Origin: Nitrososphaerota archaeon
GTDB taxonomy: Archaea; Thermoproteota; Nitrososphaeria; Nitrososphaerales; Nitrosopumilaceae
Assembly: GCA_028820595.1 (NCBI GenBank)
Contig: JAPPIP010000018.1
Coordinates: forward strand, 1 to 38,593
Length of the DNA stretch: 38,593 bases
Direction of reading: 5' to 3'
A program made the position numbers and the translations under genes. Below, one piece after another: positions 396-31,716 of this stretch. Under the pieces are notes generated by a model. The model was not told the DNA's origin. It searched no databases and was given only the letters and a program-made list of their open reading frames with translations. The stretch's first letter is position 1. Each line of letters begins with the position of its first letter.

Positions 396-2084
396 GTGGC
401 CGATACGAAGGAACCAAGCCGGGACCTCATACCGGTGAGGATGCTCGCCCAGTACGCGTACTGCAGGCGCCTCGCGTACATGGAGTGGGTCCAGGGCGAG
501 TTTGCCTACAATGCGGAGGTAGTTGACGGCGCGCACAAGCACAGGAACGTCGACAAGCCCTCCAAGAGGACAAGGCCCCCCAAGGGCGGCGATGCCGAGG
601 GCCCCGGGGACGTCATACACGCGCGGTCCGTCATGCTTTCCGATGCCAAGCTGGGACTGGTTGCAAGGATGGACCTCTTGGAGGTTGACGGCGGCGTTGC
701 CACGCCGATAGAGTACAAGCGCGGGACGACTCCGCAGACTCCCACCGGCACGTACCCGGATCACGTGGTCCAGGTCTGCGCCCAGGGGCTGATCCTGAGG
801 GCCAACGGATACGCGTGCACGGGCGGGATCATATACTACGTGGGCTCCAAGCAGCGCGTGCGCGTGGACTTTGACGAGCAGACGGTATCGATGACCATGC
901 AGATGATCGGCGAGATGCGGGAGATGGCATCAAGGGACGCGATGCCGCCCCCGCTAGTCGACAGCCCAAAGTGCCCCAGGTGCTCGCTGGTGGGGATCTG
1001 CATGCCGGATGAGACAAACCTTCTCGGCGGCGCCAGCACGCAGCGCGGCATTACAAAGGACCAGGTCAGGCGCATGTATCCGATCCGCGACGATGCCGTC
1101 CCCGTGTACGTGCAGGACCAGGGCGCGCGCGTATCAAAGTCGGGCGACTGCATACACGTAAAGACCGCAGACGAGACCAGAAAGATCCGGCTCATCGACG
1201 TCTCCGAGCTCACCGTCTTTGGCAACGTGCAGATCACCACCCAGACGATAAGGGAGCTCTGCGGGAGGGACATACCGATCTGCTACATGACGTACGGCGG
1301 GTGGTTTGTCGGCATGACGCGCGGCCTTGCAAGCAAGAACATCGGACTGAGGATAGGCCAGCATCTGGCATACTCCAAGACCAGTTCGCGCATGGCCATC
1401 GCGCGCGAGATCGTGTCCGGCAAGATAAAAAACAGCATAACCATGCTCAGGCGGAACCACGGCTCGCCCCCCGCCGGAAAGATTGCGGAGATGGAGGGGT
1501 TCGCACAGAGGGCGCTCGCCGCAAGGCAGTACGACGCGCTGCTCGGGATAGAGGGGATGGCGGCGCGCCTTTACTTTTCCGAGTTTTCCGGCATGCTAAA
1601 GTCCGACTCCGCCGCCTTTGACTTTGAGGGCCGGAACCGGAGGCCGCCCAAGGACCCGGTCAACGCCATGCTGTCGTTCCTGTACGCGATGCTGACCCGG
1701 CAGGCGACCGTCACCGCGTCAAAGGTCGGACTGGACCCGTACCTGGGGTACCTCCACATGCCAAAGCACGGCAAGCCCGCGCTGGCCCTCGACCTGATAG
1801 AGGAGTTCCGACCACTCGTGGCCGACTCCACGTGCCTGACGCTCGTGAACACCGGCGAGATCTCAGAGTCAGACGTGGTACGGTCGGACTTCGGCGTGGC
1901 GCTCACTGCAGAGGGGAGGAGGACTGTCATAAGGGCGTACGAGCGCAGGATGGACGCGTCGGTCATGCACCCGCTGCTCGGGTACGGCGCAAGCTACAGG
2001 AGGATACTGGAGACCCAGGCAAGGCTGCTTTCCAGGCACATTCTAGGCGAGATTGCGGCGTATCCGGCGTTCCGCACGAGGTGA
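396..2084 (+). CDS. cas4-cas1: Cas4-Cas1 fusion protein (type I-G adaptation)
   Basis: GTG start. N-terminal Cas4-like exonuclease with Cys cluster (AYCRR ... CPRCSLVGIC); C-terminal Cas1 with GIEGMAARLYF and YLHMPKHGKPALALDLIEEFRP motifs. Confidence 0.95.
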   Translation: MADTKEPSRDLIPVRMLAQYAYCRRLAYMEWVQGEFAYNAEVVDGAHKHRNVDKPSKRTRPPKGGDAEGPGDVIHARSVMLSDAKLGLVARMDLLEVDGGVATPIEYKRGTTPQTPTGTYPDHVVQVCAQGLILRANGYACTGGIIYYVGSKQRVRVDFDEQTVSMTMQMIGEMREMASRDAMPPPLVDSPKCPRCSLVGICMPDETNLLGGASTQRGITKDQVRRMYPIRDDAVPVYVQDQGARVSKSGDCIHVKTADETRKIRLIDVSELTVFGNVQITTQTIRELCGRDIPICYMTYGGWFVGMTRGLASKNIGLRIGQHLAYSKTSSRMAIAREIVSGKIKNSITMLRRNHGSPPAGKIAEMEGFAQRALAARQYDALLGIEGMAARLYFSEFSGMLKSDSAAFDFEGRNRRPPKDPVNAMLSFLYAMLTRQATVTASKVGLDPYLGYLHMPKHGKPALALDLIEEFRPLVADSTCLTLVNTGEISESDVVRSDFGVALTAEGRRTVIRAYERRMDASVMHPLLGYGASYRRILETQARLLSRHILGEIAAYPAFRTR

Positions 2085-2087
2085 GGT

Positions 2088-2384
2088 ATGGTGGCGCGGA
2101 ACAGGTACTTTGTCTGCTATGACGTGCGGGACCCGCAGCGCCTTACGCAGACGTACAAGACGATGTGCGGATACGGGGACCGCGTCCAGTATTCGGTGTT
2201 TCTGTGCGACTTGAGCGACGTCGAGCTTGTAATGATGAGGGGTGACCTGGAGAATGTCATGAACACCAAGGAGGACAGCCTCGTCATCGTCAACGTCGGC
2301 TCTGTCGAAAAGAGCGGGGCGCGGATAACCACTGTCGGCACGTCCCTTGGAACCCAGAGGAGGGATGCGTCAATCGTGGTGTGA
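2088..2384 (+). CDS. cas2: CRISPR-associated endoribonuclease Cas2
   Basis: 98 aa, RYFVCYDVRDPQRLTQTYKTMCGYGDRVQYSVFLCDLS is a Cas2 signature; directly after cas4-cas1. Confidence 0.95.
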   Translation: MVARNRYFVCYDVRDPQRLTQTYKTMCGYGDRVQYSVFLCDLSDVELVMMRGDLENVMNTKEDSLVIVNVGSVEKSGARITTVGTSLGTQRRDASIVV

Positions 2385-2557
2385 TGTGCTGCGAGAGGCC
2401 GGGAGCAGAGGCGCGCATGGGAAGGCCCTCGCACACGCTATATATGCCCGGCGTGGCACTGGTACGGTGTAGCAGGACATGAGCCGCATATCGGACACAA
2501 CTGGAGACAGAGTGACGCAACCTGCCTGCCGGCGCCGAATCTAGGCGTGTGTGCGGG
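2385..2557 (+). promoter_or_regulatory. Putative CRISPR leader with TATA-like box
   Basis: Non-coding stretch between cas2 and first repeat; TATA-like CTATATATG around 2439-2447. Confidence 0.6.
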
Positions 2558-5500
2558 CTTTCCGCAACGAGTATGTTGCGGCCCCATTGAAGCATGCGAA
2601 AGACATGTCTAAGTTTCTTGGACTTTTCGTGCTTTCCGCAACGAGTATGTTGCGGCCCCATTGAAGCGGCGGTCTTTTCACCGGATACGAGCAGGGAGGC
2701 CCACCTTTCCGCAACGAGTATGTTGCGGCCCCATTGAAGCCACGAGGTTCGGCATGGAATAGCAGATTGTGCCCACCTTTCCGCAACGAGTATGTTGCGG
2801 CCCCATTGAAGCCTTGCCGCCGCCCTCGGAGCCGTTTCGGCGTGCGCCTTTCCGCAACGAGTATGTTGCGGCCCCATTGAAGCGATATGTGGAAACAAAG
2901 TAGTGGGGACAGACACCAAACTTTCCGCAACGAGTATGTTGCGGCCCCATTGAAGCTGGCAAAGCGGCTTCAAAACCATCGGCGGCATCATCCTTTCCGC
3001 AACGAGTATGTTGCGGCCCCATTGAAGCCTGGCCGACATATACGCTCACGTCGCCGGGGGCCGCGAGCTTTCCGCAACGAGTATGTTGCGGCCCCATTGA
3101 AGCGTGCCGTCTACTTCGCACGCCCTGATGACCGCCCCGCTGCTTTCCGCAACGAGTATGTTGCGGCCCCATTGAAGCACAGTTACCATGCCTGTATGAA
3201 AAAAAATGAATATACTTTCCGCAACGAGTATGTTGCGGCCCCATTGAAGCCGCTCCCTGACGTCCGCTACGAGCACGCCGATGTCCGCTTTCCGCAACGA
3301 GTATGTTGCGGCCCCATTGAAGCCTGAAGTCGGTATTTGATCTCAACGCGCTGGTTGACCTTTCCGCAACGAGTATGTTGCGGCCCCATTGAAGCGCGTA
3401 CGACGACTCGACCCTCGGCATATGCTACGGGCTTTCCGCAACGAGTATGTTGCGGCCCCATTGAAGCGGTATAATCCGAATAGTTGTTGGACCAGTGGTA
3501 TTCCACGCTTTCCGCAACGAGTATGTTGCGGCCCCATTGAAGCCGTTAGCGGTTTGGAGTTGAGACTTGCAGGCATTGAGCTTTCCGCAACGAGTATGTT
3601 GCGGCCCCATTGAAGCATGAACGTATTTTCCGATGATCAGATGAAGTCCCATGACTTTCCGCAACGAGTATGTTGCGGCCCCATTGAAGCCGCCCCAAGG
3701 AAAGGCGTCGGCCAATCCGCCCATTCGGCTTTCCGCAACGAGTATGTTGCGGCCCCATTGAAGCATTGCCTCGCAAACAGAATCCCAAATTTTGGGATAA
3801 TCTTTCCGCAACGAGTATGTTGCGGCCCCATTGAAGCAAACTTCAGTATGAGATTCAGTATGATGAGTACTGCTTTCCGCAACGAGTATGTTGCGGCCCC
3901 ATTGAAGCACCGCCTGGCTCTTCCGCCGCCTGCAGCGCGTGGAGGCTTTCCGCAACGAGTATGTTGCGGCCCCATTGAAGCGTACCAGTCCCGCGGCGAC
4001 ATGGCTTCCGGCCCCGGACTTTCCGCAACGAGTATGTTGCGGCCCCATTGAAGCTCAATTCAACGGTGTGAATTCCGACTCCGAAGCCGCCAACTTTCCG
4101 CAACGAGTATGTTGCGGCCCCATTGAAGCGCAAAAACCGCATTGAAAGTCTAAGAAACTTAGACATTCTTTCCGCAACGAGTATGTTGCGGCCCCATTGA
4201 AGCGGCAATGCAGAGAAGGAAGAGGAAGAAGCAGTGATCCTTTCCGCAACGAGTATGTTGCGGCCCCATTGAAGCTCCAATTCCTTCCTGTCCCTGCCCA
4301 GTCCCTCGAGCTTTCCGCAACGAGTATGTTGCGGCCCCATTGAAGCAATTCGTATAATTGTAGGGAAGCGGCATGACTGAAGCTTTCCGCAACGAGTATG
4401 TTGCGGCCCCATTGAAGCTTCTCCCCGCCCCACACGATGTTGATCTTCACGTCGTCTTTCCGCAACGAGTATGTTGCGGCCCCATTGAAGCCCGCAGGGG
4501 CCGCAGAACCTCCTCGTCTCGGTGCGGCTTTCCGCAACGAGTATGTTGCGGCCCCATTGAAGCCCGGCGCGTCCGCGGAGGTCGAACGCTATGCAGCAGT
4601 CTTTCCGCAACGAGTATGTTGCGGCCCCATTGAAGCGGTCTATGTCATGTCCGAATTATACTCGGCGGAGATGCTTTCCGCAACGAGTATGTTGCGGCCC
4701 CATTGAAGCGTGCAATCCCATCCAGGTGCGCACGGCGCAGACTTCTTTCCGCAACGAGTATGTTGCGGCCCCATTGAAGCAGGCCGATAGGGGATTTCAT
4801 AGCCCTGATGCTGAAGCTTTCCGCAACGAGTATGTTGCGGCCCCATTGAAGCGAAGGGGGGGTTCAAGAAAAAGGCCCCCAATGAAGACTTTCCGCAACG
4901 AGTATGTTGCGGCCCCATTGAAGCCGGCGCTACAACGGTGACGTGATACCGCAATCCGCCCTGCTTTCCGCAACGAGTATGTTGCGGCCCCATTGAAGCA
5001 TTGAATTTCCGAGGTCGCGCCCCTCTGAGACGGCGCTTTCCGCAACGAGTATGTTGCGGCCCCATTGAAGCTTGTTCCGTATTGCCACACTTGCTGTAAT
5101 GTGGAAAATCTTTCCGCAACGAGTATGTTGCGGCCCCATTGAAGCCACCGCAAGTGTCACAAACAAGGAAAGTTCCCTCCTCTTTCCGCAACGAGTATGT
5201 TGCGGCCCCATTGAAGCGGACGTTGACGTGATCAGGTCGAGCTTTGCCCACGCGCTTTCCGCAACGAGTATGTTGCGGCCCCATTGAAGCGTAGGCTCAA
5301 CATCGCTGACTCTGAATCCATCGCTACTTTCCGCAACGAGTATGTTGCGGCCCCATTGAAGCATTGAAGCCGCCGGCAGTCCAAGGGAAGCCATCCGAAC
5401 TTTCCGCAACGAGTATGTTGCGGCCCCATTGAAGCTCGTCCAAGGCGTATGTGGTGAACTGCGCCTCCCCGCTTTCCGCAACGAGTATGTTGCGGCCCCA

Positions 5501-7371
5501 TTGAAGCTCCCCCCGGCTGGACGTCGCCGCCTCACACCAGATGCTTTCCGCAACGAGTATGTTGCGGCCCCATTGAAGCCTCGACCATGCGTCCGTCGAC
5601 GGCCGCCGCGCTGGCTTTCCGCAACGAGTATGTTGCGGCCCCATTGAAGCTGCCTGCGCTCCTCGAGGGTCAGGGCGGCGCGGCGGCGCTTTCCGCAACG
5701 AGTATGTTGCGGCCCCATTGAAGCAGGTCCGACGTCCTCTACTATGAGACGGATTCCGACTTTCCGCAACGAGTATGTTGCGGCCCCATTGAAGCATGTG
5801 GTCGACCGCGGACCTTATCAGCGCGATTGCGCTTTCCGCAACGAGTATGTTGCGGCCCCATTGAAGCTGCGGCTGGTTCATTTATTTACACCTCCGCTGC
5901 CGCCTTTCCGCAACGAGTATGTTGCGGCCCCATTGAAGCAGCGCCCGCGGGTTTGTCAGCCGCGATACCATCAGGGCTTTCCGCAACGAGTATGTTGCGG
6001 CCCCATTGAAGCTGACATGCTGTGCATTTTGCCATACTTCAGGGTATTTCTTTCCGCAACGAGTATGTTGCGGCCCCATTGAAGCGTGTGGGCAGCCCTC
6101 ATGCGGCGCCACCAGCACCAGCTTTCCGCAACGAGTATGTTGCGGCCCCATTGAAGCGAAAACGCGTCGTTCAGTTCGTCGACCGCGTCAAGCTTTCCGC
6201 AACGAGTATGTTGCGGCCCCATTGAAGCTACAGCATGAACCAGAGCAAGGGCGTGGACCACGTCAACTTTCCGCAACGAGTATGTTGCGGCCCCATTGAA
6301 GCAGAAAAAGAGAAAAAGGAAATTCTCAATTTTGAGAACTTTCCGCAACGAGTATGTTGCGGCCCCATTGAAGCGATTCGGGCGACGTGATGACGCACAA
6401 GATGATCGAGCTTTCCGCAACGAGTATGTTGCGGCCCCATTGAAGCGTGCCTTTCGACTGGGTTCTCCGGCTTCGGGGGCTGCTTTCCGCAACGAGTATG
6501 TTGCGGCCCCATTGAAGCGGCCGCTTCTTTCGAGAGGGGGTGCCTGGCGAGATCGTCTTTCCGCAACGAGTATGTTGCGGCCCCATTGAAGCTACGGCAT
6601 GGACAAGGCCCCCAAGGCGCCCCGCGTCAACTTTCCGCAACGAGTATGTTGCGGCCCCATTGAAGCTGGCGGGTGGCCGTATGCCTTCCCAAGAGGGCCA
6701 TTGCTTTCCGCAACGAGTATGTTGCGGCCCCATTGAAGCAGCTTTAGCCCGGTGGAGAACTCGCCGAGCGCCGCGTCTTTCCGCAACGAGTATGTTGCGG
6801 CCCCATTGAAGCGAGCGCCACGCGTACGGCCATCGGTCGGAGCCGACGCTTTCCGCAACGAGTATGTTGCGGCCCCATTGAAGCTACTCCATGAACCAGA
6901 GCAAGGGCGTGGACCACGTCCTTTCCGCAACGAGTATGTTGCGGCCCCATTGAAGCTGCGGCATATGCAGTTTTCATGTCGCCCTTTTTGGCTTTCCGCA
7001 ACGAGTATGTTGCGGCCCCATTGAAGCCCATACTTATCGACCACCACCGCGACCAGACCGCACTTTCCGCAACGAGTATGTTGCGGCCCCATTGAAGCAC
7101 GGATTCGCAAAAGCAAAAGATGATCGACGAGACCGCTTTCCGCAACGAGTATGTTGCGGCCCCATTGAAGCAGGAAGCGGATCAGTGTGTCAATGCTTGG
7201 CACGCGGCTTTCCGCAACGAGTATGTTGCGGCCCCATTGAAGCGACAACCCATGATTTAGTAATTACCGCAACAGCCGATCTTTCCGCAACGAGTATGTT
7301 GCGGCCCCATTGAAGCTCTTGTATGACGATCATGCCGTTGACGATCCGCGCCCTTTCCGCAACGAGTATGT
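2558..7371 (+). CRISPR. CRISPR array: 66 full repeats, 66 spacers, 1 truncated terminal repeat
   Basis: Repeat CTTTCCGCAACGAGTATGTTGCGGCCCCATTGAAGC (36 nt), counted by eye; first repeat 2558-2593, last full repeat 7281-7316, truncated repeat 7353-7371. Internal stem CCGCAAC-GAGTAT-GTTGCGG and an ATTGAAGC 3' end typical of a Cas6 8-nt handle, giving + strand orientation. Spacers about 35-40 nt. Confidence 0.98.
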
Positions 7372-8690
7372 CAGGAGTTAGGATTTAAGGTATTTGCCAT
7401 TTGAAATTCCCGTGATGCTTTTCCCATTTTATCAATTGCTCGGCTGCGGTGGCCATGCATTTGACAAACGATACGATTGCAAAGCTCTTGCCTCCTGCCA
7501 AATTGCCGTGACGGAGATCATAATATTGCCCCGGGCGCCACAGGCCGTACGACAGCAGTGCAAAATAAAACAAAATCCGCCTCACGTGCAGCCGCCTGCT
7601 GCACGTTTTGGCAAGTGCGTCCTTTATGGTCCTAAAGCCGGTCTCCACAATCCGGCGCCTTCTGTATTCTTCCGGCAGGACATCCGCCAATTCCTTCCGG
7701 GTGCAGACGGGCAGGTTTGTGGCAAACGCAGCGCATTGGTCCGTGATCGGGGCGTCCTTGTCGCATCCGTCCCTTCTGACGACGAGCAGGTTGAACGGCG
7801 CCTTTTCCTTGGTCCTGGTGCCTGTGATGTGAAACCGCGATGCCGCGCCCCTCGTCCCCGCATCAACCTCCGTTATGGCCTTTTTTACGCGCGCGTTTTT
7901 TGCAGCGGGCATCAGAAACTTTCTGCCGCCGTCTTGCAGCCCGTTTATGGCCGCCGCGGATAAAAATTCGCGGTCCGCGAGGACCACGCCGACGGCAGGC
8001 CCCCGCCGGCCCGGCTTCTTCGGCATTTGAAGCAGGGATGTGACCGCCCTGTCCCCGTTTAGCACCGTCTTGGTGTCCAGTGGGATGTTGCAGTCCCTGC
8101 GTACCGTATGCAGCGTCAGGTGTGAGGGGAACTTTGAGGTGCCGTTCCTGGGCTTTGATGTCCTCATCCGCCCACTGAGGCTGTCCCCGTAATGCCCCGG
8201 GCCGCTGACGTCGGCCGCAACAGTGCAGCCGGATCGCACCAGGCCTTCCCTGCGCGCACGCCTCGGGATGCAGTTGACGCTGCCGCCGCACCACCGGTCC
8301 GCCCCGGCCGGATCCAGTTTCCTTGGCTTTTTCATCATCCAGCTTCCCGAAGGGATCCTCGGAACAGATTCCCCGTTCTTCTGTTTTTCAAACCTGTCTT
8401 TTTTGAGATCGCGCGACACCGATTCTGCAAACCTTTTACTGTGTGACATTGTCTGGAGCACCATTGGCATGTCGTGCCGGTTGAAACCCTTTCGCTGCTT
8501 TGAAAACTCTATGCCGGGCTTTTCAAACCTTGAAAATAAAACTCGATATTCCTTGCTGCTCAGTGTGTTTTGATGTGCGTAATTGTCTTCTCGCTTGCTC
8601 ACGCCATGATGCTAATATCTATAGGCGCATATAAATTATTCTACCGCGTAATTAAAAATTCAGATAAAAAACACTAAATCCGAACTACTG
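7372..8690 (-). mobile_element. 1319-bp IS element (IS4-like DDE) with imperfect 19-bp terminal inverted repeats
   Basis: Left end CAGGAGTTAGGATTTAAGG (7372-7390); right end CACTAAATCCGAACTACTG (8672-8690), whose reverse complement matches at 15/19 positions; encloses one transposase ORF. Confidence 0.85.
7385..8602 (-). CDS. DDE transposase (IS4-like)
   Basis: 405 aa, GTG start; VVLADREFLSAAAINGL (second D motif) and YRRRRIVETGFRTIKDALA (E motif); flanked by inverted repeats. Confidence 0.85.
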   Translation of the reverse strand: MSKREDNYAHQNTLSSKEYRVLFSRFEKPGIEFSKQRKGFNRHDMPMVLQTMSHSKRFAESVSRDLKKDRFEKQKNGESVPRIPSGSWMMKKPRKLDPAGADRWCGGSVNCIPRRARREGLVRSGCTVAADVSGPGHYGDSLSGRMRTSKPRNGTSKFPSHLTLHTVRRDCNIPLDTKTVLNGDRAVTSLLQMPKKPGRRGPAVGVVLADREFLSAAAINGLQDGGRKFLMPAAKNARVKKAITEVDAGTRGAASRFHITGTRTKEKAPFNLLVVRRDGCDKDAPITDQCAAFATNLPVCTRKELADVLPEEYRRRRIVETGFRTIKDALAKTCSRRLHVRRILFYFALLSYGLWRPGQYYDLRHGNLAGGKSFAIVSFVKCMATAAEQLIKWEKHHGNFKWQIP

Positions 8691-9480
8691 GCATGTCCGA
8701 CACGGCGCCGCGCTCTCCCCGTGCAAACTCCCCGACGGCCTCGGTCACCGCCGGCGTGTTCCTGCACGGAACCAGGTACTTTATGTTCATGTCCACGAGC
8801 GTCTGCAGCACCGCCGTCGAAAAGAACTCCCTGTCGGCCATGACCGTCCCGACGCCTGCTCCCGTATCCCTGCACGCGGCAGGCAGCGTGCGCACGCAGT
8901 CCGCCACCTGCTCCGGCGCGGGCATCGGAAGGACCGCCACTACGAGTCGGGCCCCCGGGGTTACGGACTGGACCGTGATGTGCCGCTCGAACCTGTCGGT
9001 GCCTTTCTTGGACCTCGACCTCACGAGCTCGGCGCCGTGCCCCTTGTCGTACCGGGGGATCAGGTGCATGTCGATTGCCAGGTCCCACCCGACCGGGTCC
9101 TGCCCGCGCCCGCGCAGGTGCGCGAGCGTCCTCTGCACCCCGTCCCTGAACGCGTCGGCGCCAAATCCCTCCGGAATCTTTGCAAGCGCGAGGCGCTCCC
9201 ACTCGCCGGACGGCATCTCCGGGCTGCCGGCCTCCTCCCGGAACCTGCCCGCCTCCCTGCGCGCCAGCCGCGCGGAGTCGATGCAGCCGGCCGTGTTTGC
9301 GTTGAATATGCCGCCAAGAAGCAGGCAGTTGTTCAGGTGCTCCTCCGCGTACTGGGCGTTGTCGGCACGCGACACCGCGGGGACGCGCCGCACAAAATCC
9401 CGCATCGACAGCCCGACAGACTCATAAGTGCGCCCGGCGAGCATCATGTCACGTCTCAATGGGTTGTCCTGGTGGGACAT
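8691..9480 (-). pseudogene. Truncated related DDE transposase lacking its C-terminal third
   Basis: ORF 8674-9480 has AIDMHLIPRYDKGHG and VMADREFFSTAVLQ motifs but ends in the right terminal repeat of the neighbouring IS, before the catalytic E motif. Confidence 0.8.
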
Positions 9481-9636
9481 GATCCCATTGGGACTCTTCC
9501 CTCATTTAGGCGTGACGAAAGCGCGCAGATAACTTTAAAGATCATGAGCGTCGCCGACCCGCCGTTAGGCGGGCCTAACATTTGGGTTAACTGCGATCAC
9601 CATTATGTTAATAAACTTGGCTAAAAATTACAATGT

Positions 9637-10614
9637 ATGAAGTTACCTAATGAAGACAGGTTACTGGCAGAAGTTCAACTTGAACCAGTCCAAGGCTCGC
9701 GTTTCCAGCCTACAGGATTTCCATCACTTGGTGCAGCTGAATTCACGTCAATATCGAATGATACTAACACTGACTGCGTTCTAGTAGAATCCGTGCAGTC
9801 CATGGCCAACAGGCTTGAAGATGTCTGCTGGGACAAAGAGAAACTGCGTTTGGCAGATGCTCTTTCTGGCATGCCCGTTATAACGGTAAACGACAAAAAT
9901 TCCAAGTTCTTGACCAACTCGCTGCTTGAGGCGCATCGTATGAATTCATCATACATGCTTGAGGGCAGTGACAAGACCCTGAACGAAACTATCAAGCGCG
10001 AACTGCAAATAAAAGACGACGGCATCGTGGCTCGAATACCAGATTTTGCACGTTTTGTGCTTAGATACGATCCAAATTCATTGCTGCATGGACTGTTTCT
10101 GAGCCGTAAAGAATTGGCAGGTGGAAGATACAAGATGACGCGCATACTTTCTTCGTTCATTGAGGCGACAAATGTCAAGCCTGTTGTAAGTGGAGGCGTA
10201 AAATTTGACTTTGTCGATCCCAGCGGCGGCGAGGCTGGCGCTGAATCCGGGTTCGGACACATTCCGTACCCTAGAACAGAATACTCTGCAGAGTCTATCG
10301 TTGCATACTTTAACGTGGACATATCCTTGCTCAGATCATACGGGCTTAGCGACGTTGCAAATAATTTCCTATTCACGCTGGCACTCTGGAAGATACGATT
10401 CTTCTTGAAGCACGGACTCCGACTGAGAACCGCCTGTGACTTGAAAATTAAAAAAGAGATCCGAGTCTCTCAGCCCAGATCGATGAAAATCCCCGATCTT
10501 GATGTCCTAAGCAAGGATGTCACGTTGCTGATTAAAAAATGCAAGTCTGAGGGTCTGTTTACGGAAAAACCTCTGACCGTGACGTACTCTGCCAAAAAAG
10601 CGGATAAAAAATAG
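9637..10614 (+). CDS. csb1: Csb1 / Cas7 (GSU0053 family), type I-G Cascade subunit
   Basis: RLLAEVQLEPVQGSRFQPTGFPSLGAAEF and VESVQSMANRLEDVCWD are characteristic of Csb1. Confidence 0.92.
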   Translation: MKLPNEDRLLAEVQLEPVQGSRFQPTGFPSLGAAEFTSISNDTNTDCVLVESVQSMANRLEDVCWDKEKLRLADALSGMPVITVNDKNSKFLTNSLLEAHRMNSSYMLEGSDKTLNETIKRELQIKDDGIVARIPDFARFVLRYDPNSLLHGLFLSRKELAGGRYKMTRILSSFIEATNVKPVVSGGVKFDFVDPSGGEAGAESGFGHIPYPRTEYSAESIVAYFNVDISLLRSYGLSDVANNFLFTLALWKIRFFLKHGLRLRTACDLKIKKEIRVSQPRSMKIPDLDVLSKDVTLLIKKCKSEGLFTEKPLTVTYSAKKADKK

Positions 10615-10623
10615 GCATGTGCA

Positions 10624-12096
10624 TTGTTCGCCATCGCCATACGTTTTATCCACGGCAGGTATCATGCTACCCCTTGGGGCAAACATGTTAACGAAGGCGT
10701 GCCAGAATGGCCGCCAACCCCGTGGAGGGTTTTACGAGCCATCATTGCAGCATGGAAACGCGTTAGGCCAGACCTTGCCGACGAGGTTGTGTGGCCCATA
10801 CTGCAAAAGCTGGCCTTTGAACCTCCGGCCTATGGCCTCCCAGACGCCAGCGTATCGCATACGCGACATTACATGCCTGCAAACCAAAAAAAGGTTTTTC
10901 TGATCATGGATACGTTCGTTGTAATGGGGCAAAGACCTGTCTACATGGTATGGAATAACGTGACATTAAACCCGGACGAATCATCCCTGTTGGAGATGAT
11001 GTTGTCAAACATTCACTACCTTGGGCGGGCCGAATCTTGGTGCGACATATCGATTGCACCTTCCACTCCTTCATGCAACTGTCTGATATTGTCTGAGGGC
11101 CAAAGCATGAACCCTTCCCAAGAAATTGTGCGGGTGCTTGCCCCAAACCGACATGCGTGCTTTGAGGATCTTGACGCCACTGCGGCCGGATCGGAGAATC
11201 TAAAGTCCATAACAGTAACAACCAAGACTCTTCAGGACAATAAGTATGCAGATCCGCCCGGTAGCAGGTGGTTGCTGTATGCCAGGCCGCAAAACTGTTT
11301 TGAGCCCCGAAATGACACGCAAGCCAAAACCTCATCAAACCGCGTAACGTTGGTGCGGTATGCTGTGACTGGAGCCACGAGACCTGACGTTAGAGACACG
11401 TTGCGCATAGGAGACATGACTCGTACCGCGTGTATGTCTAGGTACGGAAAAGCAAAAAATGGTGAAAGCTCTGCAACATTCACTGGCAAGGACGCCGACG
11501 GACATCCGCTTACCGATCATATGCACGCCTTCTTCCTTCCCACGTATGAGAAACAAAATCAAGAGATTGACCACGTCACGATTCTTGCAAAAAATGGCTT
11601 TGACAGTGACGAACTTTACTTGCTGTCCGGATTAAAGCGCCTCTACAGATACGATACTGACCCCGTAAATCTCCTGTTCCAAGGATGCGGCACGCTGCAG
11701 GACTTCTCAACCGTTCCAATATTTGGCACTGGTAGGAAGTGGGTGTCAACAACCCCCTTCGTGTTAACCCGGCACACAAAGTACCGAGGAAAGGGAAGCA
11801 AGAAACGTATGGTTGATGGCCTTGGGGATCAGATCCGATCCGAGATGGGAAAAAGATATGGTCAAACACATAATCTGGAGAGAGTTACTGTAATCGACGC
11901 TCAGGAGAACGTCGGCAACACACTCTTCAAGCCACACGAATTTTTCAGGTGGCGCCGTCATGGCAGCAAGGGAAGCGATCAGGCATACAACCTGCGTCTC
12001 GAATTCAAAGAAGCGATCAGCGGTCCATTGACGCTAGGCTATGCGTCCCATTTCGGCTTGGGAATGTTTGCTCCGACAGGAGATACAGCCTCATGA
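10624..12096 (+). CDS. csb2: Csb2 / Cas5-Cas6 fusion (GSU0054 family), type I-G
   Basis: TTG start; FAIAIRFIHGRYHATPWGKHVNEGVPEWPPTPWRVLRAIIAAWKR is a diagnostic Csb2 N-terminus; overlaps cas3 by ATGA. Confidence 0.92.
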   Translation: MFAIAIRFIHGRYHATPWGKHVNEGVPEWPPTPWRVLRAIIAAWKRVRPDLADEVVWPILQKLAFEPPAYGLPDASVSHTRHYMPANQKKVFLIMDTFVVMGQRPVYMVWNNVTLNPDESSLLEMMLSNIHYLGRAESWCDISIAPSTPSCNCLILSEGQSMNPSQEIVRVLAPNRHACFEDLDATAAGSENLKSITVTTKTLQDNKYADPPGSRWLLYARPQNCFEPRNDTQAKTSSNRVTLVRYAVTGATRPDVRDTLRIGDMTRTACMSRYGKAKNGESSATFTGKDADGHPLTDHMHAFFLPTYEKQNQEIDHVTILAKNGFDSDELYLLSGLKRLYRYDTDPVNLLFQGCGTLQDFSTVPIFGTGRKWVSTTPFVLTRHTKYRGKGSKKRMVDGLGDQIRSEMGKRYGQTHNLERVTVIDAQENVGNTLFKPHEFFRWRRHGSKGSDQAYNLRLEFKEAISGPLTLGYASHFGLGMFAPTGDTAS

Positions 12097-14441
12097 AATA
12101 CGCTCGATTTGAAGATTTCTTTCGCAAGGCGACGGAACACACGCCGTATTCATACCAAAAAGAATTGGCCAAGCCGGGAACTCACCATAGCATCGTAAGC
12201 GTCCCGACGGGTGCCGGAAAGACAGAGTCCGCCGTACTCTGCATGTGGCTGTGGAAGAGACTAAACGGCAAGAACGTTCCAAAAAGACTCGTGTACTGCC
12301 TTCCGATGAGGGTTCTTGCGGAGCAGACGCATGCCAAGGTGACCAGATGGATAAAGAATCTCGCCCTTGAAGAGCGCATATCAGTCGAATTGCTTATGGG
12401 GGGCAGCGATACGAGAATCGAGAGGATACTTCCACACAAGGAATGCGTAATAATCGGAACCCAGGACATGCTTGTTTCTGGCGCTCTCAACCGGGCATAT
12501 GGCAGTAGCCCGGCCGTCTGGCCAATCGTATTTGGACTGCTTAACAACGACTGCATGTGGATCATGGACGAGATTCAAATTATGGAAAATGCGCTGCCCA
12601 CATCCATACAGCTTGACAGCTTTCGACGTTCTATGGGCGCATTTGGCCCCCACAGCACGGTATGGATGTCGGCCACGGTAAACCCCGACTGGATCAAGAC
12701 TGTGGACTTTAACGAAGGCGCGAGTACGTACAGGCTCAATCCTTCAAAGGTGGAAAAAGCCCTCAAGAAAAGGCATCATGCCCCAAAGACACTGCACGAG
12801 GCGCCGTTCAAACTTAACAAAGAATACAGCAAGGAGGATGTGAAAAAAATAATGCGCCTCCACGTACAAGAAACCACTACTGCAATTATTGTCAACACGG
12901 TAAAGAGGGCGCAATCAATTTTTAAGATCCTGTCGCAAGATTATGACTGCACGCTGATTCACTCCAGATTTCGCGGGTTCGAGAGGCACTCCCTTAATGA
13001 GTGGCTCTCAAAATTTAAGGATCAACAGGATGATGGACGGGACCAAGTCATTATCTCGACACAGGTGATCGAGGCAGGAGTGGACATATCGGTCAGGACC
13101 ATGATTACGGAGCTTGCGCCGTGGGCCAACATGATCCAGAGATTCGGGAGGTGCAACAGGTATGGCAGCCTCCACGATGCGAACGTTTTTTGGATAGACA
13201 TGGATGATACGTCATTTCCACCGTACGAAAAAACTGATATGGACAAGGCAAGGCGCGAACTAAATAAGCTCTCGGGCAGATCTGTGTCTCCCGGGGATCT
13301 TCCAGAATTCAAGGATCAAAAAACGTTTGATGCCGTTTTGCGCCGGCGCGACATCATGGGGCTGTTTGACACAACACCAAACCTGTCCGGCGGTTATACT
13401 GACGTTTCCCAATTTGTGCGCAGTCTGGAGCAGCGGCTTGACGTTGGTGTGTTCTGGCGCAACCTTGGCGGAAGCACGTCGGGGCAGCCCCGACCCGAGC
13501 CAGAAGAGATATGCGACGTCCCAATACACGAGATGCACAGCTTTCTCAAGGGCAGAAAGGGGTGGGTCTGGAGCTATGCAAACGAGTCTTGGGAGCGGGC
13601 CTATTCCGGTGACATACTCCCGGGCCAAACGGTCATGCTGGACAGCACAGACTCGGGATACTCTAGTGTAACGGGCTGGGATCCATCACACACGGATCCG
13701 GTCGAGCCTGTGTTGGAGCCTGTCTCCATGCCAGAGTCACACTACAGCGACATGCGCTCTAAACTGGGTGCGTTCGTAACGCTTGAGGATCATACGCTGC
13801 ACGTGCACGACGAGGCGCGCTCCATGCTCAAAAAAGAAACACACATGGAACGCAGCCTCAAGGAAGCCATCCTGATTGCCGCGAAATACCACGATGTCGG
13901 CAAGGCTCACCACGTTTTTCAGAATGCCGTACGGGGTAATGGTAACGGCAGTGACCCCCAAACCAAGCAGGTGTGGGCAAAAGGGCCGTCCCTGTCACGC
14001 TATGAGCGAACAGGATTTAGGCACGAAGTCGTAAGCATGCTGGCGTATCTTGGGCAACGCGACAGGCCCAAAAAAGAGCTCCGGAATCTAGCTGCATATC
14101 TGATACTCTCTCATCATGGCAAGGTCCGCCTCTCTCTTGGCATCCCCCGGTCCCGCTCTGACAGTAGCATGCGCAATGGCCACATGCTGGGTGTCTCACT
14201 TGGGGGCGAGACATTTCCAGAATTTGTCAGCAAGGAGGTATCTGTCGCCGAGACCGACATTGACATGTCCCTTGCAAGCATGGGCCGAGACCCTTCCGGA
14301 AGGCCGTCGTGGTCTGAGAGGACAATAAGGCTGCGAGACGAGCATGGCCCGTTTAGGCTTGGGTATATGGAGACGTTGCTCAGAAGGGCTGACTGGCTTG
14401 CAAGCGAAAAGGAAGGCAGGGGTGAATACAGGCGTGAATGA
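12093..14441 (+). CDS. cas3: Cas3 helicase with C-terminal HD nuclease domain
   Basis: ATG at 12093 overlaps the csb2 stop. Motif I SVPTGAGKTESA, DEIQ box, QRFGRCNRYG; C-terminal HD motifs YHDVGKAHHVFQ, FRHEVVSML, LSHHGKVR. Confidence 0.94.
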   Translation: MKYARFEDFFRKATEHTPYSYQKELAKPGTHHSIVSVPTGAGKTESAVLCMWLWKRLNGKNVPKRLVYCLPMRVLAEQTHAKVTRWIKNLALEERISVELLMGGSDTRIERILPHKECVIIGTQDMLVSGALNRAYGSSPAVWPIVFGLLNNDCMWIMDEIQIMENALPTSIQLDSFRRSMGAFGPHSTVWMSATVNPDWIKTVDFNEGASTYRLNPSKVEKALKKRHHAPKTLHEAPFKLNKEYSKEDVKKIMRLHVQETTTAIIVNTVKRAQSIFKILSQDYDCTLIHSRFRGFERHSLNEWLSKFKDQQDDGRDQVIISTQVIEAGVDISVRTMITELAPWANMIQRFGRCNRYGSLHDANVFWIDMDDTSFPPYEKTDMDKARRELNKLSGRSVSPGDLPEFKDQKTFDAVLRRRDIMGLFDTTPNLSGGYTDVSQFVRSLEQRLDVGVFWRNLGGSTSGQPRPEPEEICDVPIHEMHSFLKGRKGWVWSYANESWERAYSGDILPGQTVMLDSTDSGYSSVTGWDPSHTDPVEPVLEPVSMPESHYSDMRSKLGAFVTLEDHTLHVHDEARSMLKKETHMERSLKEAILIAAKYHDVGKAHHVFQNAVRGNGNGSDPQTKQVWAKGPSLSRYERTGFRHEVVSMLAYLGQRDRPKKELRNLAAYLILSHHGKVRLSLGIPRSRSDSSMRNGHMLGVSLGGETFPEFVSKEVSVAETDIDMSLASMGRDPSGRPSWSERTIRLRDEHGPFRLGYMETLLRRADWLASEKEGRGEYRRE

Positions 14442-16560
14442 GCACGAGCTAAGCGGGTGCACAACGACTCCGATGTCAAACTATCTAAAGTCGCTGGGAC
14501 TGGCCAGGATACTCTCAAGAAACGATCCCACACTTATGGCGTTCTGGAGAAATGACCGTCTTGTCATACAGTCGTCCATGACAAAGAATGAGATCTGTCA
14601 ATACGTCCTGCGCGACTATGCCCCATCCCCGATAATAAGCCCGTGGAGCTACAACAAGTACCAAAAGACCCGGGATGCATTAAAGCCCAGATTGGACTCT
14701 GACGATGACCGGTACCGAATGTACAGGGACACGATATCTCGCCTGAAGCACACAGTGTTTGAAGATCTTAAGAGAAATACCGGCCTGAAAAAAATTGACA
14801 AGGCCTCAATAGACAAACACAAACTGCTCTTGCTCAAACTGTGCCGCAACATGCTGCCTGACGAGTACGTCTCGTGGCTAGACGTGGTATCGGTACTTGA
14901 TAATACTGAAAAACCACGATTTGCACCCCTGCTTGGCTCTGGTGCAAACGATGGCAACTTTGACATGGCAGAGAATTTCGTAAAATGCCTGCTGCTTGTG
15001 CTGCAACCTGAAGCGCACCAGGAAAGATCTGAGAAGTGGCTGAAGGCTTCATTGTTTGGGGGAGTAGTTGGTTTGGAACGCATAAACACAGTGGGGCACA
15101 ATCCGGACGGTAGCGGTGGTCCGAACTCTGGTGCGGGGTTTGAGGGCGAGTCAATGTCAAACCCGTGGGACTATGTGCTGTTAATGGAGGGCACTCTGCT
15201 GTTTGCAGGGGGCGTTTCAAAGCGCCTGTCAAACACAAGCGGCAAGGCAATGTTCCCATTTGCGGTAGGCGCATCCAATGTCGGGTATGCTACTGCCTCC
15301 ATTGACGATACGGACGGAGGGCAGGAGCCCGCCTCCAAGGGGGAGCTGTGGCTGCCCGTGTGGGGCAGGCCTTCCACGTGCGCGGAGATCGAACAGGTGT
15401 TCCAAGAGGGCCGGATGCAGGTCGGCGGCCGTCCTGCCGCTACGGGTACCGAGGCCGCAAGATCCGTGATTACCATGGGCACAGAACGGGGCATGGACAA
15501 GTTTGAAAGGTTCGGTATACTGAAGAGAAAAGGAAAACAGTACCTCTTTGTCCATTCCGGTGCACTGCGTGTTGCAGACGAGCCTGCGGCGAGCCTGCTC
15601 GATGATCTGGACGACTGGTACGACTCTGCCGTCAAAAGCAAGAGCAAGAGCAAGTCACTTGAACAGATGATAAGGAGTTATGACGGAGCCGTCATGCGGT
15701 TCTGCACGACCCGCAAGCAGCGCGACATGCTCGAAATATTGGCATCCGTCGGCAAAATCGAGGCGCACCTAGCCATGATTTCCCCTGATTCCGTGCTGCT
15801 GCAACAGCTGTCTGATGAGTGGTTGCACGAATGTTATGATGGCTCTGCAGAGTTCAGACTGGCTGCATCAATTGCATCAATCCAGCCCTCACACAAAGTT
15901 GGAAGCGTAAGGACAAATCTTGAAAAGTCCGAGAGAAGCAACATCGGTGTATGGAAGCCCTCTAAGAATACAGTCTCTTGCGTCTGGAAGAACAACGACG
16001 ACCTCATTAGAAACATGTCGCGTGTTCTGCAAAGACGCGGCGTTGAAGGACAAATCCAATCACTAAAAACAATACCAATTGAGGGGGCCATACCCACCCA
16101 GATCTCGGACATTGCACAATTTCTCGATGGAAACCTAAATTTCAAAAAAATTGGCAGTCTTGTGCTAGCACTTTCCTGCATAAAGATACGTCGTGGCATG
16201 GACTATCCATGGAAGCATGTCAGATTATCCAGAAACAACGATACTGCAATACCAGAGGCGTACGCGGTCATGAAGTTGGTCTGTCCCCCGCTGGAAAAAG
16301 ACAGTGTCAGGTATGACCTGGCCATGCTCCAGCTGCTGTCGTCAGGGCGCGTGAGTGACGCATACGCAAAAGCTGCATACATGCTGCACTCGCACGGTTT
16401 TGCGCCTCACAGCTATGACGGAAGAACCAAACGCTCGCACGGTACTACCGTGTCGAACACCGTCAAAAATCACATACTGGCCTCGCTCCTCTTTCCGATA
16501 TCAAACCAGACCAGAAACCTGCTGCTAAGGACCGTTACTAGCTATGAGCATGCAACCTGA
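14434..16560 (+). CDS. csx17: Csx17 / Cas8u2 large subunit, type I-G
   Basis: GTG start overlapping the cas3 end; N-terminus HELSGCTTTPMSNYLKSLGLARILSRNDPTLMAFWRNDRLVIQS matches the Csx17 pattern; about 708 aa. Confidence 0.88.
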   Translation: MNEHELSGCTTTPMSNYLKSLGLARILSRNDPTLMAFWRNDRLVIQSSMTKNEICQYVLRDYAPSPIISPWSYNKYQKTRDALKPRLDSDDDRYRMYRDTISRLKHTVFEDLKRNTGLKKIDKASIDKHKLLLLKLCRNMLPDEYVSWLDVVSVLDNTEKPRFAPLLGSGANDGNFDMAENFVKCLLLVLQPEAHQERSEKWLKASLFGGVVGLERINTVGHNPDGSGGPNSGAGFEGESMSNPWDYVLLMEGTLLFAGGVSKRLSNTSGKAMFPFAVGASNVGYATASIDDTDGGQEPASKGELWLPVWGRPSTCAEIEQVFQEGRMQVGGRPAATGTEAARSVITMGTERGMDKFERFGILKRKGKQYLFVHSGALRVADEPAASLLDDLDDWYDSAVKSKSKSKSLEQMIRSYDGAVMRFCTTRKQRDMLEILASVGKIEAHLAMISPDSVLLQQLSDEWLHECYDGSAEFRLAASIASIQPSHKVGSVRTNLEKSERSNIGVWKPSKNTVSCVWKNNDDLIRNMSRVLQRRGVEGQIQSLKTIPIEGAIPTQISDIAQFLDGNLNFKKIGSLVLALSCIKIRRGMDYPWKHVRLSRNNDTAIPEAYAVMKLVCPPLEKDSVRYDLAMLQLLSSGRVSDAYAKAAYMLHSHGFAPHSYDGRTKRSHGTTVSNTVKNHILASLLFPISNQTRNLLLRTVTSYEHAT

Positions 16561-16875: not shown

Positions 16876-17404
16876 ATGAAGAGAGCGAAACGCACGACGA
16901 GGGACCTCCAGCTCCGACAAAAACACTACGAAGCAGACGTAAAGTTCAGGATACTGCACCTGTTCGAGCGCGGGGACATGCCACCCGAAGGGGCGTGGCA
17001 TATTCCGCACGCAGCGGGGGCGGTCAAACTCCCCGGCGTTCATCAGGTTCCCAGAGGCCCTGCGCAAAAAGTCCCCTAGGGCCGTCGTCCTGACGGGCGG
17101 GGCCACATGCCACGCCTCCAAGGCGGTCGGGAGGTGGCTGCAGAAGCATCCGGGAATAGTCCCAATCTGCCTTCCGGTGGGATCCCCGCACATGAGCTCG
17201 ATTGAAAACCTGTGGGGGATGATGCACTCGTACCTGGCCCGCGTCGGATACGACACGTTTGAAAGGTTCATGCACCTCGCGCTCTATTTTTTGCGCCGTT
17301 GCGCGTCCGATCTCGACGTCCGGGGCAGGTTGGACTCGCGCCCGGATCCGGCCGCCGAGGCTCGAATCATGCGGACCAGAAAGCTGCTCGAATCATTTCA
17401 GTAA
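16876..17404 (+). pseudogene. Degenerate IS630-family transposase
   Basis: HTH-like N-terminus (MKRAKRTTRDLQLRQKHYEADVKFRILHLFERGD), then a frame change and the C-terminal part VVLTGGATCHASKAVGRWLQKHPGIVPICLPVGSPHMSSIENLWGMMHSYL; middle section missing. Confidence 0.75.
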
Positions 17405-17692
17405 AAACAACTCATGCGCCGCAGACCTGTTCATCAGATGCAACAAAATACAATATTTTGGGGCATCCATGCCATTATTTTTTTGGCAAATAATAAAAAT
17501 GACAAGTCAAGCAAGTTTACGTGACCCAAAATACGATATTTCGAGTTCGATGGGTAAAATAATTATTCATATTTGTATTCATATTAATTGAAAAACATAT
17601 CTTAAATGCTATATATCAAAACAATGATCTTATAGTAAACTTACATATTAAATCACAAATCTTAACTCAATTTACTATAGCATGCAAGCCTT

Positions 17693-17950
17693 TCAACCGT
17701 AAACGCGCCGCCTGTGGCCAGCCTCGATGACAAAAATTATTATCGAGCCCTGTTGCAGGCCCATTATAATCCGGTAACTTCCAACGCGCATCCTGAAAAA
17801 CGCAGAGTCTGACAGTCTACTGACCGCGGCATACGGGTTGCCCCTCGCCCCGACGACCGCATCCCTTATCATCCTGGCGTGTCTCTTGTCCAATTTTTTT
17901 AACTGCCTGACCGATCTTGACGACCACAGGACGTTCCAGGCCATCCTCAC
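17693..17950 (-). CDS. RelE/ParE-family toxin
   Basis: 85 aa: WNVLWSSRSVRQLKKLDKRHARMIRDAV...FFRMRVGSYRIIM...IEAGHRRRVYG; overlaps upstream antitoxin gene. Confidence 0.88.
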   Translation of the reverse strand: MRMAWNVLWSSRSVRQLKKLDKRHARMIRDAVVGARGNPYAAVSRLSDSAFFRMRVGSYRIIMGLQQGSIIIFVIEAGHRRRVYG

Positions 17951-18177
17951 AGCCCTAGTTCGCTGTCCAGCTGCTCGGTGGTATACACGCGCCCCGCCTT
18001 GATGTCCCTTACGCCCTCCTCGATGCTCTTTATCGTCCGGGCGGAGAGCTCGTCGTCACGGTCACTTTTTTGCGCCAGTCTCCGGATCAGCTGATCAAAC
18101 GTCTCGCCCGGATGCAGCTTCTGCCCCTCCAGGATCTCCTTGGTCTCCTTGCTCAGCTGAATGGTAGTCCTTGCCAT
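17947..18177 (-). CDS. Antitoxin of the RelE-type module
   Basis: Start ATG at 18177: MARTTIQLSKETKEILEGQKLHPGETFDQLIRRL (ribbon-helix-helix-like N-terminus). Confidence 0.8.
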   Translation of the reverse strand: MARTTIQLSKETKEILEGQKLHPGETFDQLIRRLAQKSDRDDELSARTIKSIEEGVRDIKAGRVYTTEQLDSELGL

Positions 18178-18208
18178 GGCATGCCATGGCATGCCATGGT
18201 ATAAAAGC
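18174..18208 (-). promoter_or_regulatory. TA promoter/operator: TATA box plus perfect 26-bp palindrome with three CCATGG units at 10-bp spacing
   Basis: CCATGGCATGCCATGGCATGCCATGG (18174-18199); on the minus strand CTTTTATACC lies just upstream; the last CCATGG contains the antitoxin ATG. Confidence 0.75.
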
Positions 18209-18817
18209 CATGCACCCGGTTCTCTCCCAACCTCGGTGGATGGGCGCATGCGTGGACACGTCGAGGAAATCTGTGCAAAAAAGCCAAGCCGGCATCAAAG
18301 GCTACGTACCTTGACAAGGTGTCACGTCAGCAGGTATTGCGGGGACGGGACAAGGACGGCAGGGGGCGGGGACGGAGCTTTGGACACGTGTGCGACGGCT
18401 CGTATGTGGTGGCGCGTGTGCGCGTACGAGTCATCCGTCCGCCGCATCGCGCATTGCCGCATTCTGTATGGACGTGATCCGCCCGCCGCACTCTGAATGC
18501 CTGCCGGATCATAATTGGAACCTGTTTGAGAGGGCCGGGGACACCCCGTACTCGCTTGTAAACCCCGGCGGCGCCAGGTACCCCGTCTTTGGCGGGCCCT
18601 GCCCGCCGCAAGGCCCGGGGCCGCTGCCATGTAGGCCGCATGTACGGCGCGCGTCAGAATCAGGCGGCATGGCGTGTACCCCGCCCCCCCGGTTACGGTT
18701 CCGCCTGACGCAAACGGGGCGGCGTCGGTCCGTGGCTCCGTGTCGGACGACCCGGGGGGTACGCCTTCCTGGCGCTTGGGTTATATGGCTTGCCTGCATG
18801 TGATCATTGATAATACA

Positions 18818-31600: not shown

Positions 31601-31716
31601 AGCCGGTTGACCTTTTCTATGATGACGTGGGTCTTGCCGGATCCGGGGCCGGCCCTTATCAGAAGCTGGCCCTCGGAGTGCGACACGGCCGTCCGCTGCT
31701 CCTCATTGAGTCCCAT
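28666..31716 (-). CDS. UvrD/Rep-type helicase fused to RecB/AddB-like Fe-S PD-(D/E)XK nuclease
   Basis: LNEEQRTAVSHSEGQLLIRAGPGSGKTHVI, VDEFQDNNYAQ, TIHKSKGKEFDTVFVTGL, YVAMTRAKDRLYL; C-terminal GTVIHAAMERL, GKIDRLDRNPDGEYEVVDFKTGR, CKWCPYNKIC. Confidence 0.9.
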   Translation of the reverse strand: MGLNEEQRTAVSHSEGQLLIRAGPGSGKTHVIIEKVNRLVADGIPPESILCMTFTERAADEMRRRLGPGTGEVWVGTIHSLCLEILKDNRIKTGTSESTVVFGGLPRLAWCFRNMNAFGIDPNIVNLEKSPIDKLTSMLKAVRLAKRELVSADDLERHARNGLAAAPDDESLARLGELVKVYRAYDSYKNSHNLIDYDDMVAMTVDLFERDARVLETYRKQYQHVLVDEFQDNNYAQFRLAVLLAGHGNITAVGDDDQSIMGFQGAFGGIFDEFRDAYPGHKSVTLGQNYRCSGNISKLSVGLLSAESGRDTKPLVSKRPAGERVVVAATTDEESEYEFVAKTIPDLGVPHGKVAVLCRTNRSCQAFARALRASGIPAALVGTGNLMRNPLVAEIMALLRIAASPETAGDSISLVLSRRGIREYNIQAINRKAARLASDNGTPDDGVYATLMGYPGLDQEAEAGEIARQLKSMCDESRKIGLLGTLYRIMMEYTDAYKKNANAPDGDEDAAWNLAVLNKLYDVAEEYERHYYGRRLSDFVEYVELAENPDAIDTGAEYDEPAAGAVSVLTIHKSKGKEFDTVFVTGLRDDSMPGKPRTDDFEIPKALLKGSGRSDDSDLHFWEQRNLLYVAMTRAKDRLYLSYPKLAGDSRKEREPSRFLKDTKYESNPSVLTVEYEKAKASVSAVQSALDAEKSRIQEDVCKAVRESRPVAAVLGTVNLAKITHEHQESGGRGDSGAMSTLKDGMDEAAAAIAAAMDGDPPVAGKPEGRLVRKETLTLSASGIEEYQVCPLKFKYNRILRIPSRLSMAMRKGTVIHAAMERLGGERASGRDQDVAEATRLAAEELSLSRSEYDAAEYAEASSSLEDIISNYATWDEASPNTPVDVEVEFRLAIDDIRYKGKIDRLDRNPDGEYEVVDFKTGRTIITHDKLRVSPQANIYAHAVREKYGSLPAKVSMVYPAKDNKTREYAVTEESLEEGLDIVKDCGSRIIDEQFDPAPGFHCKWCPYNKICPAAK

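Follow-up and report, generated by a model that had tools for sequence, protein, structure and literature searches.

A complete type I-G CRISPR-Cas locus in a Nitrosopumilaceae archaeon belongs to an archaeal clade sister to Caldilineaceae

In this paper we analysed a stretch of 38,593 nucleotides (nt) from an ammonia-oxidising Nitrososphaerota archaeon of the family Nitrosopumilaceae (assembly GCA_028820595.1, contig JAPPIP010000018.1; hereafter the window), which carries a type I-G CRISPR-Cas locus (CRISPR, clustered regularly interspaced short palindromic repeats). The window is the entire contig C28 of a draft genome, G000 in our numbering, of 1.99 Mb in 140 contigs and with 91.65% completeness. 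We hold with good confidence that the locus is a complete and ordinary-looking I-G system on an old archaeal branch sister to bacteria of the Caldilineaceae (Chloroflexota), and that it should work as I-G systems do elsewhere.

The six genes cas4-cas1, cas2, csb1, csb2, cas3 and csx17 are assigned to type I-G by NCBIfam and PADLOC, and three of them also by PDB matches. All exceed the NCBIfam cut-offs of I-G families, the cut-off for cas2 being that of the general Cas2 family, and for each gene the best PADLOC model is the 'g' model (Cas1g, Cas2g, Cas7g, Cas56g, Cas3g and Cas8g). For Cas4-Cas1 the Cas1g model scores 583 bits, and the fusion of the Geobacter sulfurreducens type (PDB 7mi4) is a full-length homologue (517 bits over residues 6-562) that differs in sequence divergence only. 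A PDB sequence search with Csb2 gave no match. Among models for the large subunit, those of Csx17/Cas8g (TIGR04113, PDLC01026 and PDLC01377) match the window protein, and NF049934 and PDLC01514 do not. Where a column of the I-G alignments is conserved at 90% or more, the window proteins nearly always have the conserved residue; this holds for the GxGKT (Walker A) and HD residues of Cas3 and for conserved acidic residues, histidines and cysteines in Cas4-Cas1. As type I-G requires, there is no separate cas11 or cas6 gene between the abutting or overlapping effector genes. The csb2 stop and cas3 start overlap as ATGA (cas3 from 12093), and a possible GTG start of csx17 at 14434 gives an overlap of 8 nt with the cas3 stop. 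The HD domain of Cas3 (PF18019) lies at residues 621-821 of 830, which is the C-terminal placement usual for I-G. A preliminary description, made from the DNA letters, had proposed the I-G type, the full gene set, the overlaps, the C-terminal HD domain and an array lying between the adaptation and effector modules; the profile searches gave no other subtype, and each of these proposals is borne out by the features in Table 1.

Table 1. Features of the I-G locus, with positions in the window
Feature	Position	Strand	Evidence and remarks
cas4-cas1 fusion (Cas4g/Cas1g), 562 amino acids	396..2084	+	NF049935 cas4g_cas1g, 724 bits (cut-off 560)
cas2	2088..2384	+	PF09827, TIGR01573; best PADLOC model Cas2g
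Leader inverted repeat GCGAG-N32-CTCGC	2391..2432		Ends some 123 nt upstream of the first repeat
TATATA, proposed archaeal TATA box of the array promoter	2439..2444	+	6 nt after the inverted repeat
CRISPR array	2557..7371	+	66 intact 37-nt repeats (GCTTTCCGCAACGAGTATGTTGCGGCCCCATTGAAGC); 65 unique spacers of 35-40 nt
ISH3/IS4-like transposase element A (gene 7385-8602)	7372..8602	-	PF01609, NF033541; multi-copy; inserted in the last repeat
ISH3-like transposase element B (open reading frame 8674-9480)	8674..9594	-	NF033541; second copy on contig C58
csb1 (Cas7g), backbone subunit	9637..10614	+	PF09617, TIGR02570; PDB 8ane Cas7, E 8e-88
csb2 (Cas5-Cas6 fusion), CRISPR RNA processing	10624..12096	+	TIGR02165, 168 bits, full length; PADLOC Cas56g, 444 bits
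cas3g, helicase with C-terminal HD nuclease	12093..14441	+	TIGR02621, 698 bits (cut-off 400); PF18019
csx17 (Cas8g), large subunit	14434..16560	+	TIGR04113, 504 bits (cut-off 150); PDB 8b2x CSX17, E 1e-85

The array agrees with this assignment. Its intact repeats show zero mismatches in a 36-nt core and form a hairpin (7-bp stem, z -2.6), after which come CCCC and ATTGAAGC, so that the stem and the 8-nt ATTGAAGC-type 5' handle expected of type I-G repeats are both present. Csb2 of the characterised I-G system has its cleavage site 4 nt 3' of the stem (PMC9638904), and the same cut in the window repeat would give the 8-nt 5' handle AUUGAAGC. Because the hairpin and the Csb2 cut site place the handle in this way, we took the + strand as transcribed and the leader as lying between cas2 and position 2557. 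Nitrosopumilaceae repeats have in common both this hairpin of the I-G type and the end ATTGAAGC. Among the spacers, numbers 51 (6229-6266) and 60 (6885-6920) are nearly identical and number 56 (6593-6630) is similar to them; in frame, spacers 51 and 60 read YSMNQSKGVDHV, as if from variants of one target gene. Spacers 17 (3765-3801), 22 (4130-4167) and 52 (6303-6338) carry a near-perfect terminal inverted repeat (for example ATCCCAAATTTTGGGAT) at similar positions in the spacer.

A further result, from the comparison of leaders, was an inverted repeat, GCGAG-N28-33-CTCGC with a length of 38-43 bp, between cas2 and the first repeat. The exact element is found in 21 of 31 leaders adjoining a cas4-cas1g module, while 1000 shuffles gave a mean of 0.10 and a maximum of 2. 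From its end to the first repeat there are 122-124 nt in the Nitrosopumilaceae leaders and 125-126 nt in those of five of the seven Caldilineaceae; the distance rises to 129-136 nt in Planctomycetota and the genome G800, and to 143-148 nt in Desulfobacterota and gammaproteobacteria. In four of the five Nitrosopumilaceae leaders (those of the window, G180, Cenarchaeum and G134) TATATA follows the inverted repeat at 6-8 nt, and in the leader alignment of cas4-cas1g loci no bacterial leader has it at the matching place. From its sequence and position we propose that this motif may be the TATA box of the array promoter. In Caldilineaceae, one Cas4-Cas1 clade and one leader element are paired with two effector subgroups, of which one has Csx17 and the other the Cas3-extension type of large subunit (NF049934, shown for the loci L010 and L019). 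Since the same element accompanies both, the inverted repeat belongs to the adaptation module or the array and not to the effectors. Type I-F Cas2 contacts leader inverted repeats (PMC12259127), and by this analogy the I-G element would most likely be a docking site for the integration complex.

Activity, PAM (protospacer adjacent motif) and promoter use in the window can be inferred from I-G systems elsewhere. Cas4-Cas1 and Cas2 would trim PAM-bearing prespacers and insert them beside the leader, whose promoter would drive transcription of the array. Csb2 would then cleave the precursor 4 nt beyond the 7-bp stem, so that each CRISPR RNA (crRNA) has the handle AUUGAAGC; Csb1, Csb2 and Csx17 would form the Cascade complex, and the DNA would be degraded by Cas3.

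For the phylogenetic analysis we used Cas4-Cas1 and the four concatenated effectors, in unrooted trees of sampled genomes. In the effector tree, the loci of the window, G180, G357, G658 and two loci of G134 (G134a and G134b) form a single Nitrosopumilaceae clade (100/100), with two Caldilineaceae as its sister group (100/100). The Cas4-Cas1 tree has the same Nitrosopumilaceae clade (100/100), and its sister group is seven Caldilineaceae (93/85). Csx17 is 46% identical to its nearest archaeal kin, Csb1 about 60% and Cas4-Cas1 65%, and a genome search placed G000 and G180 in one genus. Two further Thermoproteota loci, G055 and G549, stand apart from the Nitrosopumilaceae in the effector tree, beside a Planctomycetota locus. 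We considered an archaeal I-G clade that includes G055; the approximately unbiased (AU) test on Cas4-Cas1 does not reject it (p 0.21), but the effector tree separates G055. The simplest reading of these trees is a single old transfer from bacteria to archaea, the direction being likely.

The closest bacterial relatives, the Caldilineaceae loci L011 and L013, are sister to the archaeal clade in both trees, have the leader inverted repeat at a nearly equal distance, and have repeats that end in CCATTGAAG[GC], a likeness to the window repeats. They differ in gene order (cas3-csx17-csb1-csb2-cas4/1-cas2-array) and in a leader without the TATA box. The subgroup with the Cas3-extension large subunit has the order csb1-csb2-cas3-large subunit, like the window, and its Caldilineaceae members have the same adaptation module and leader element; it differs in that Csx17 is not found in those genomes and that its effectors are distant (cas3 22-25%). 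We observed that the loci L010, L012, L015 and L019 on one side and L011 and L013 on the other have near-identical Cas4-Cas1, repeat and leader with the two effector subgroups. The pairing of the same adaptation module, repeat and leader with two kinds of effectors points to an exchange of effectors next to an adaptation module that stayed the same. The system of Thioalkalivibrio sulfidiphilus (PMC9638904; PDB 8ane and 8b2x), which supplies the structural matches for Cas7 and Csx17 in Table 1, has csb1, csb2, csx17 and cas3 and the same repeat hairpin logic, but its host is a bacterium and its order, taken from the order of accessions and readable in either direction, is cas3-cas8g-cas7-csb2 as against csb1-csb2-cas3-csx17 in the window. 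An archaeal I-G system is already known from Methanosarcina barkeri, a distant archaeal lineage, and has, like the window, a Cas4-Cas1 fusion; that of M. barkeri is active and was characterised in vitro (PMC10504553). The remark in the preliminary description that I-G is known mainly from bacteria was fair, this biochemically characterised archaeal member notwithstanding.

The layout of the locus recurs in relatives. The array also stands between the adaptation and effector modules in G658 (on a contig of 1.86 Mb) and in G134 (on a contig of 3.17 Mb). The effector order csb1-csb2-cas3-csx17 is found in the window, G180, G357 and G134b, whereas G658, G134a, G055, G549 and all 22 complete bacterial Csx17 loci have cas3-csx17-csb1-csb2. 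The idea that the permuted order is restricted to archaea holds among Csx17-type loci and was rejected generally, given the order of the NF049934-type Caldilineaceae. A single origin of the permuted order among the archaeal loci was rejected by the AU test (p 0.0025), though with G134b on a long branch and for a group that had been picked from the finished tree. In G134, an I-G array of 531 repeats (G134:C1:2939609-2981981; L038, L111, L112, L134) extends over 42 kb with three gaps and is flanked by cas3-csx17-csb1-csb2 and cas2/cas4-cas1. The second effector locus of this genome (L039, G134:C1:1140000-1159000), with the order csb1-csb2-cas3-csx17, has no array or cas4-cas1 in the stretches read, and its effectors may use crRNAs of the large array in trans.

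I-G systems are rare in these archaea. With weak matches and query genomes counted in, 5 of 401 genomes in the class have Csx17, as does 1 of 300 in a phylum sample besides the window's own; the corresponding bacterial samples gave 4 of 301 for Chloroflexota, 12 of 274 for gammaproteobacteria, 4 of 178 for Desulfobacterota and 11 of 181 for Planctomycetota. A Cas4-Cas1g fusion above the cut-off is present in 4 of 201 Nitrosopumilaceae genomes. A search of plasmids for Csx17 gave no match.

This rarity and patchiness was one reason to consider that the entire locus was acquired recently and directly from a bacterium, as the preliminary description suggested. Another is base composition: against a host baseline of 84 long open reading frames from 15 contigs (median GC content at third codon positions, GC3, of 0.77), the effectors have a GC3 of 0.49-0.61, at the 6th-12th percentile, while cas4-cas1 is host-like at 0.84. 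The composition check that was meant to reveal foreign origin did not do so, since the gap recurs in G134 (0.92 for cas4-cas1 against 0.64-0.75 for the effectors) and, to a smaller extent, in Caldilineaceae. We thus regard the gap as usual for systems of this kind and rejected GC as a sign that the effectors were acquired separately. The phylogeny of Cas4-Cas1 and of the effectors, Csx17 included, recovered the deep archaeal clade that the preliminary description itself had named as speaking against recent transfer. With the nearest kin being other Nitrosopumilaceae in both trees at 46-65% identity, a recent bacterial donor is excluded and recent uptake of the locus is very improbable indeed; what stands of the earlier suggestion is the bacterial ancestry of the archaeal clade. 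The same GC3 values could mean that the effector cassette alone was swapped in from a Nitrosopumilaceae lineage of lower GC, and the effector order shared with G180, G357 and G134b and not with G658 or G134a would fit this. We consider such a swap unlikely, as the gap recurs in other genomes and a grouping of the window's Cas4-Cas1 with that of G180 is not rejected (AU p 0.41). It is also conceivable that the clade arose in archaea and that Caldilineaceae received I-G from them, given that the two clades are sisters in unrooted trees and that I-G occurs in other archaea too (G055, G549 and M. barkeri, PMC10504553). This seems quite unlikely to us, with G055 and G549 grouping beside a Planctomycetota locus and with I-G being sporadic in Nitrososphaeria and broad across bacterial phyla. 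An old transfer from bacteria remains the reading that we favour.

Several observations weigh against the conclusions drawn so far. The direction of transfer rests on an archaeal clade among bacterial lineages in trees that are unrooted and built from sampled genomes, and the M. barkeri system lies outside these trees. At its distal end the array has been damaged by an insertion sequence (IS), which interrupts the 67th repeat at 7371 and leaves 19 nt of it, and both transposase genes stand between the array and the effectors. An AT-rich 5' PAM (TTN) is expected of type I-G. In the search for protospacers from which it would be read, no spacer had a match beyond the array itself among 96 genomes of the genus, the window's own genome being one of them; phage records gave no convincing spacer match (one match, E 0.4), and one degenerate spacer scan of viral contigs gave none. 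Targeting by the window system is therefore unproven. One might read the insertions as the mark of an inactive relic, which we think decidedly unlikely for a locus with all six genes open and their conserved residues kept, intact repeats without a core mismatch, unique spacers and an intact leader. The insertions also raise the question whether the contig is a chimera joined at the IS elements (7372-9594), so that the adaptation genes and array would not be adjacent to the effectors or the effectors would come from another locus. Two other contigs stop 47 nt inside element A and contig G000:C58 shares 597 identical bases with element B, so that the join runs through multi-copy sequence; GC shifts across it; and a second cas4-cas1 copy on C5 (G000:C5:30-1208; L026, L145), 92% identical, is decayed, with an internal TAG and TAA, and is truncated near the contig end. 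Against this, each side of the junction differs from the other IS copies by variants of its own, the two halves both group with Nitrosopumilaceae, and the right flank is a host-like cobalamin gene cluster. Given these variants and the same module order on the long contigs of G658 and G134, the join is likely genuine, though not proven, and a chimera appears improbable.

The surroundings of the locus support an archaeal host, as had been proposed: the flanking genes include the cobalamin cluster CbiC/CbiX/CbiG/CbiD, S-adenosylmethionine synthetase and Lhr. Just 3' of csx17, a frameshifted putative transposase-like remnant (16877-17405) means that IS sequence seemingly flanks the effector cassette on both sides. 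A possible antitoxin gene lies near the effectors (17947-18249; weak VAPB_antitox and DUF7557 matches). Further downstream, a fusion of a UvrD helicase and a PD-(D/E)XK nuclease (28666-31716) matches GajB defence models and may be a housekeeping repair enzyme.

The sampled contigs of the host genome have a GC of 0.56-0.64. One study reports 47-67% for 7 of 11 sponge-associated thaumarchaea, against 32-34% for most free-living ones (PMC7848895), and the host genome fits a sponge symbiont on account of its resemblance to that range. Several of the Caldilineaceae that are sister to the archaeal clade come from sponges. The names of metagenome-assembled genomes of the sample series SB0662 include one Cenarchaeum (L008) and one Caldilineaceae (L013), both with an I-G module, and a paper on the sponge Aplysina aerophoba contains the terms Caldilineaceae and bin34 (PMC5649159). 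As one sample series yields both carriers and these terms occur in the sponge paper, sponges are a likely setting of the transfer. Passages of the literature on sponge thaumarchaea report cas genes and do not name subtype I-G. Taken together, we tentatively propose one old jump from Caldilineaceae-like bacteria to Nitrosopumilaceae, probably in sponges, in which the leader inverted repeat and its distance were kept and a TATA box was added; this history in all its parts seems to us a little short of evenly balanced.

The conserved leader inverted repeat offers a concrete and mutable target for the question how Cas4-Cas1-Cas2 finds its array. Archaea are not known to have integration host factor (IHF), and the archaeal I-G loci would allow the role of the inverted repeat to be probed without the bacterial IHF. 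These loci also link a bacterial immune system to archaea that live beside its closest bacterial carriers. If the proposed history is true, the loci would amount to a natural experiment that shows which features of a CRISPR leader have to be retained, and which altered, for it to cross between domains.

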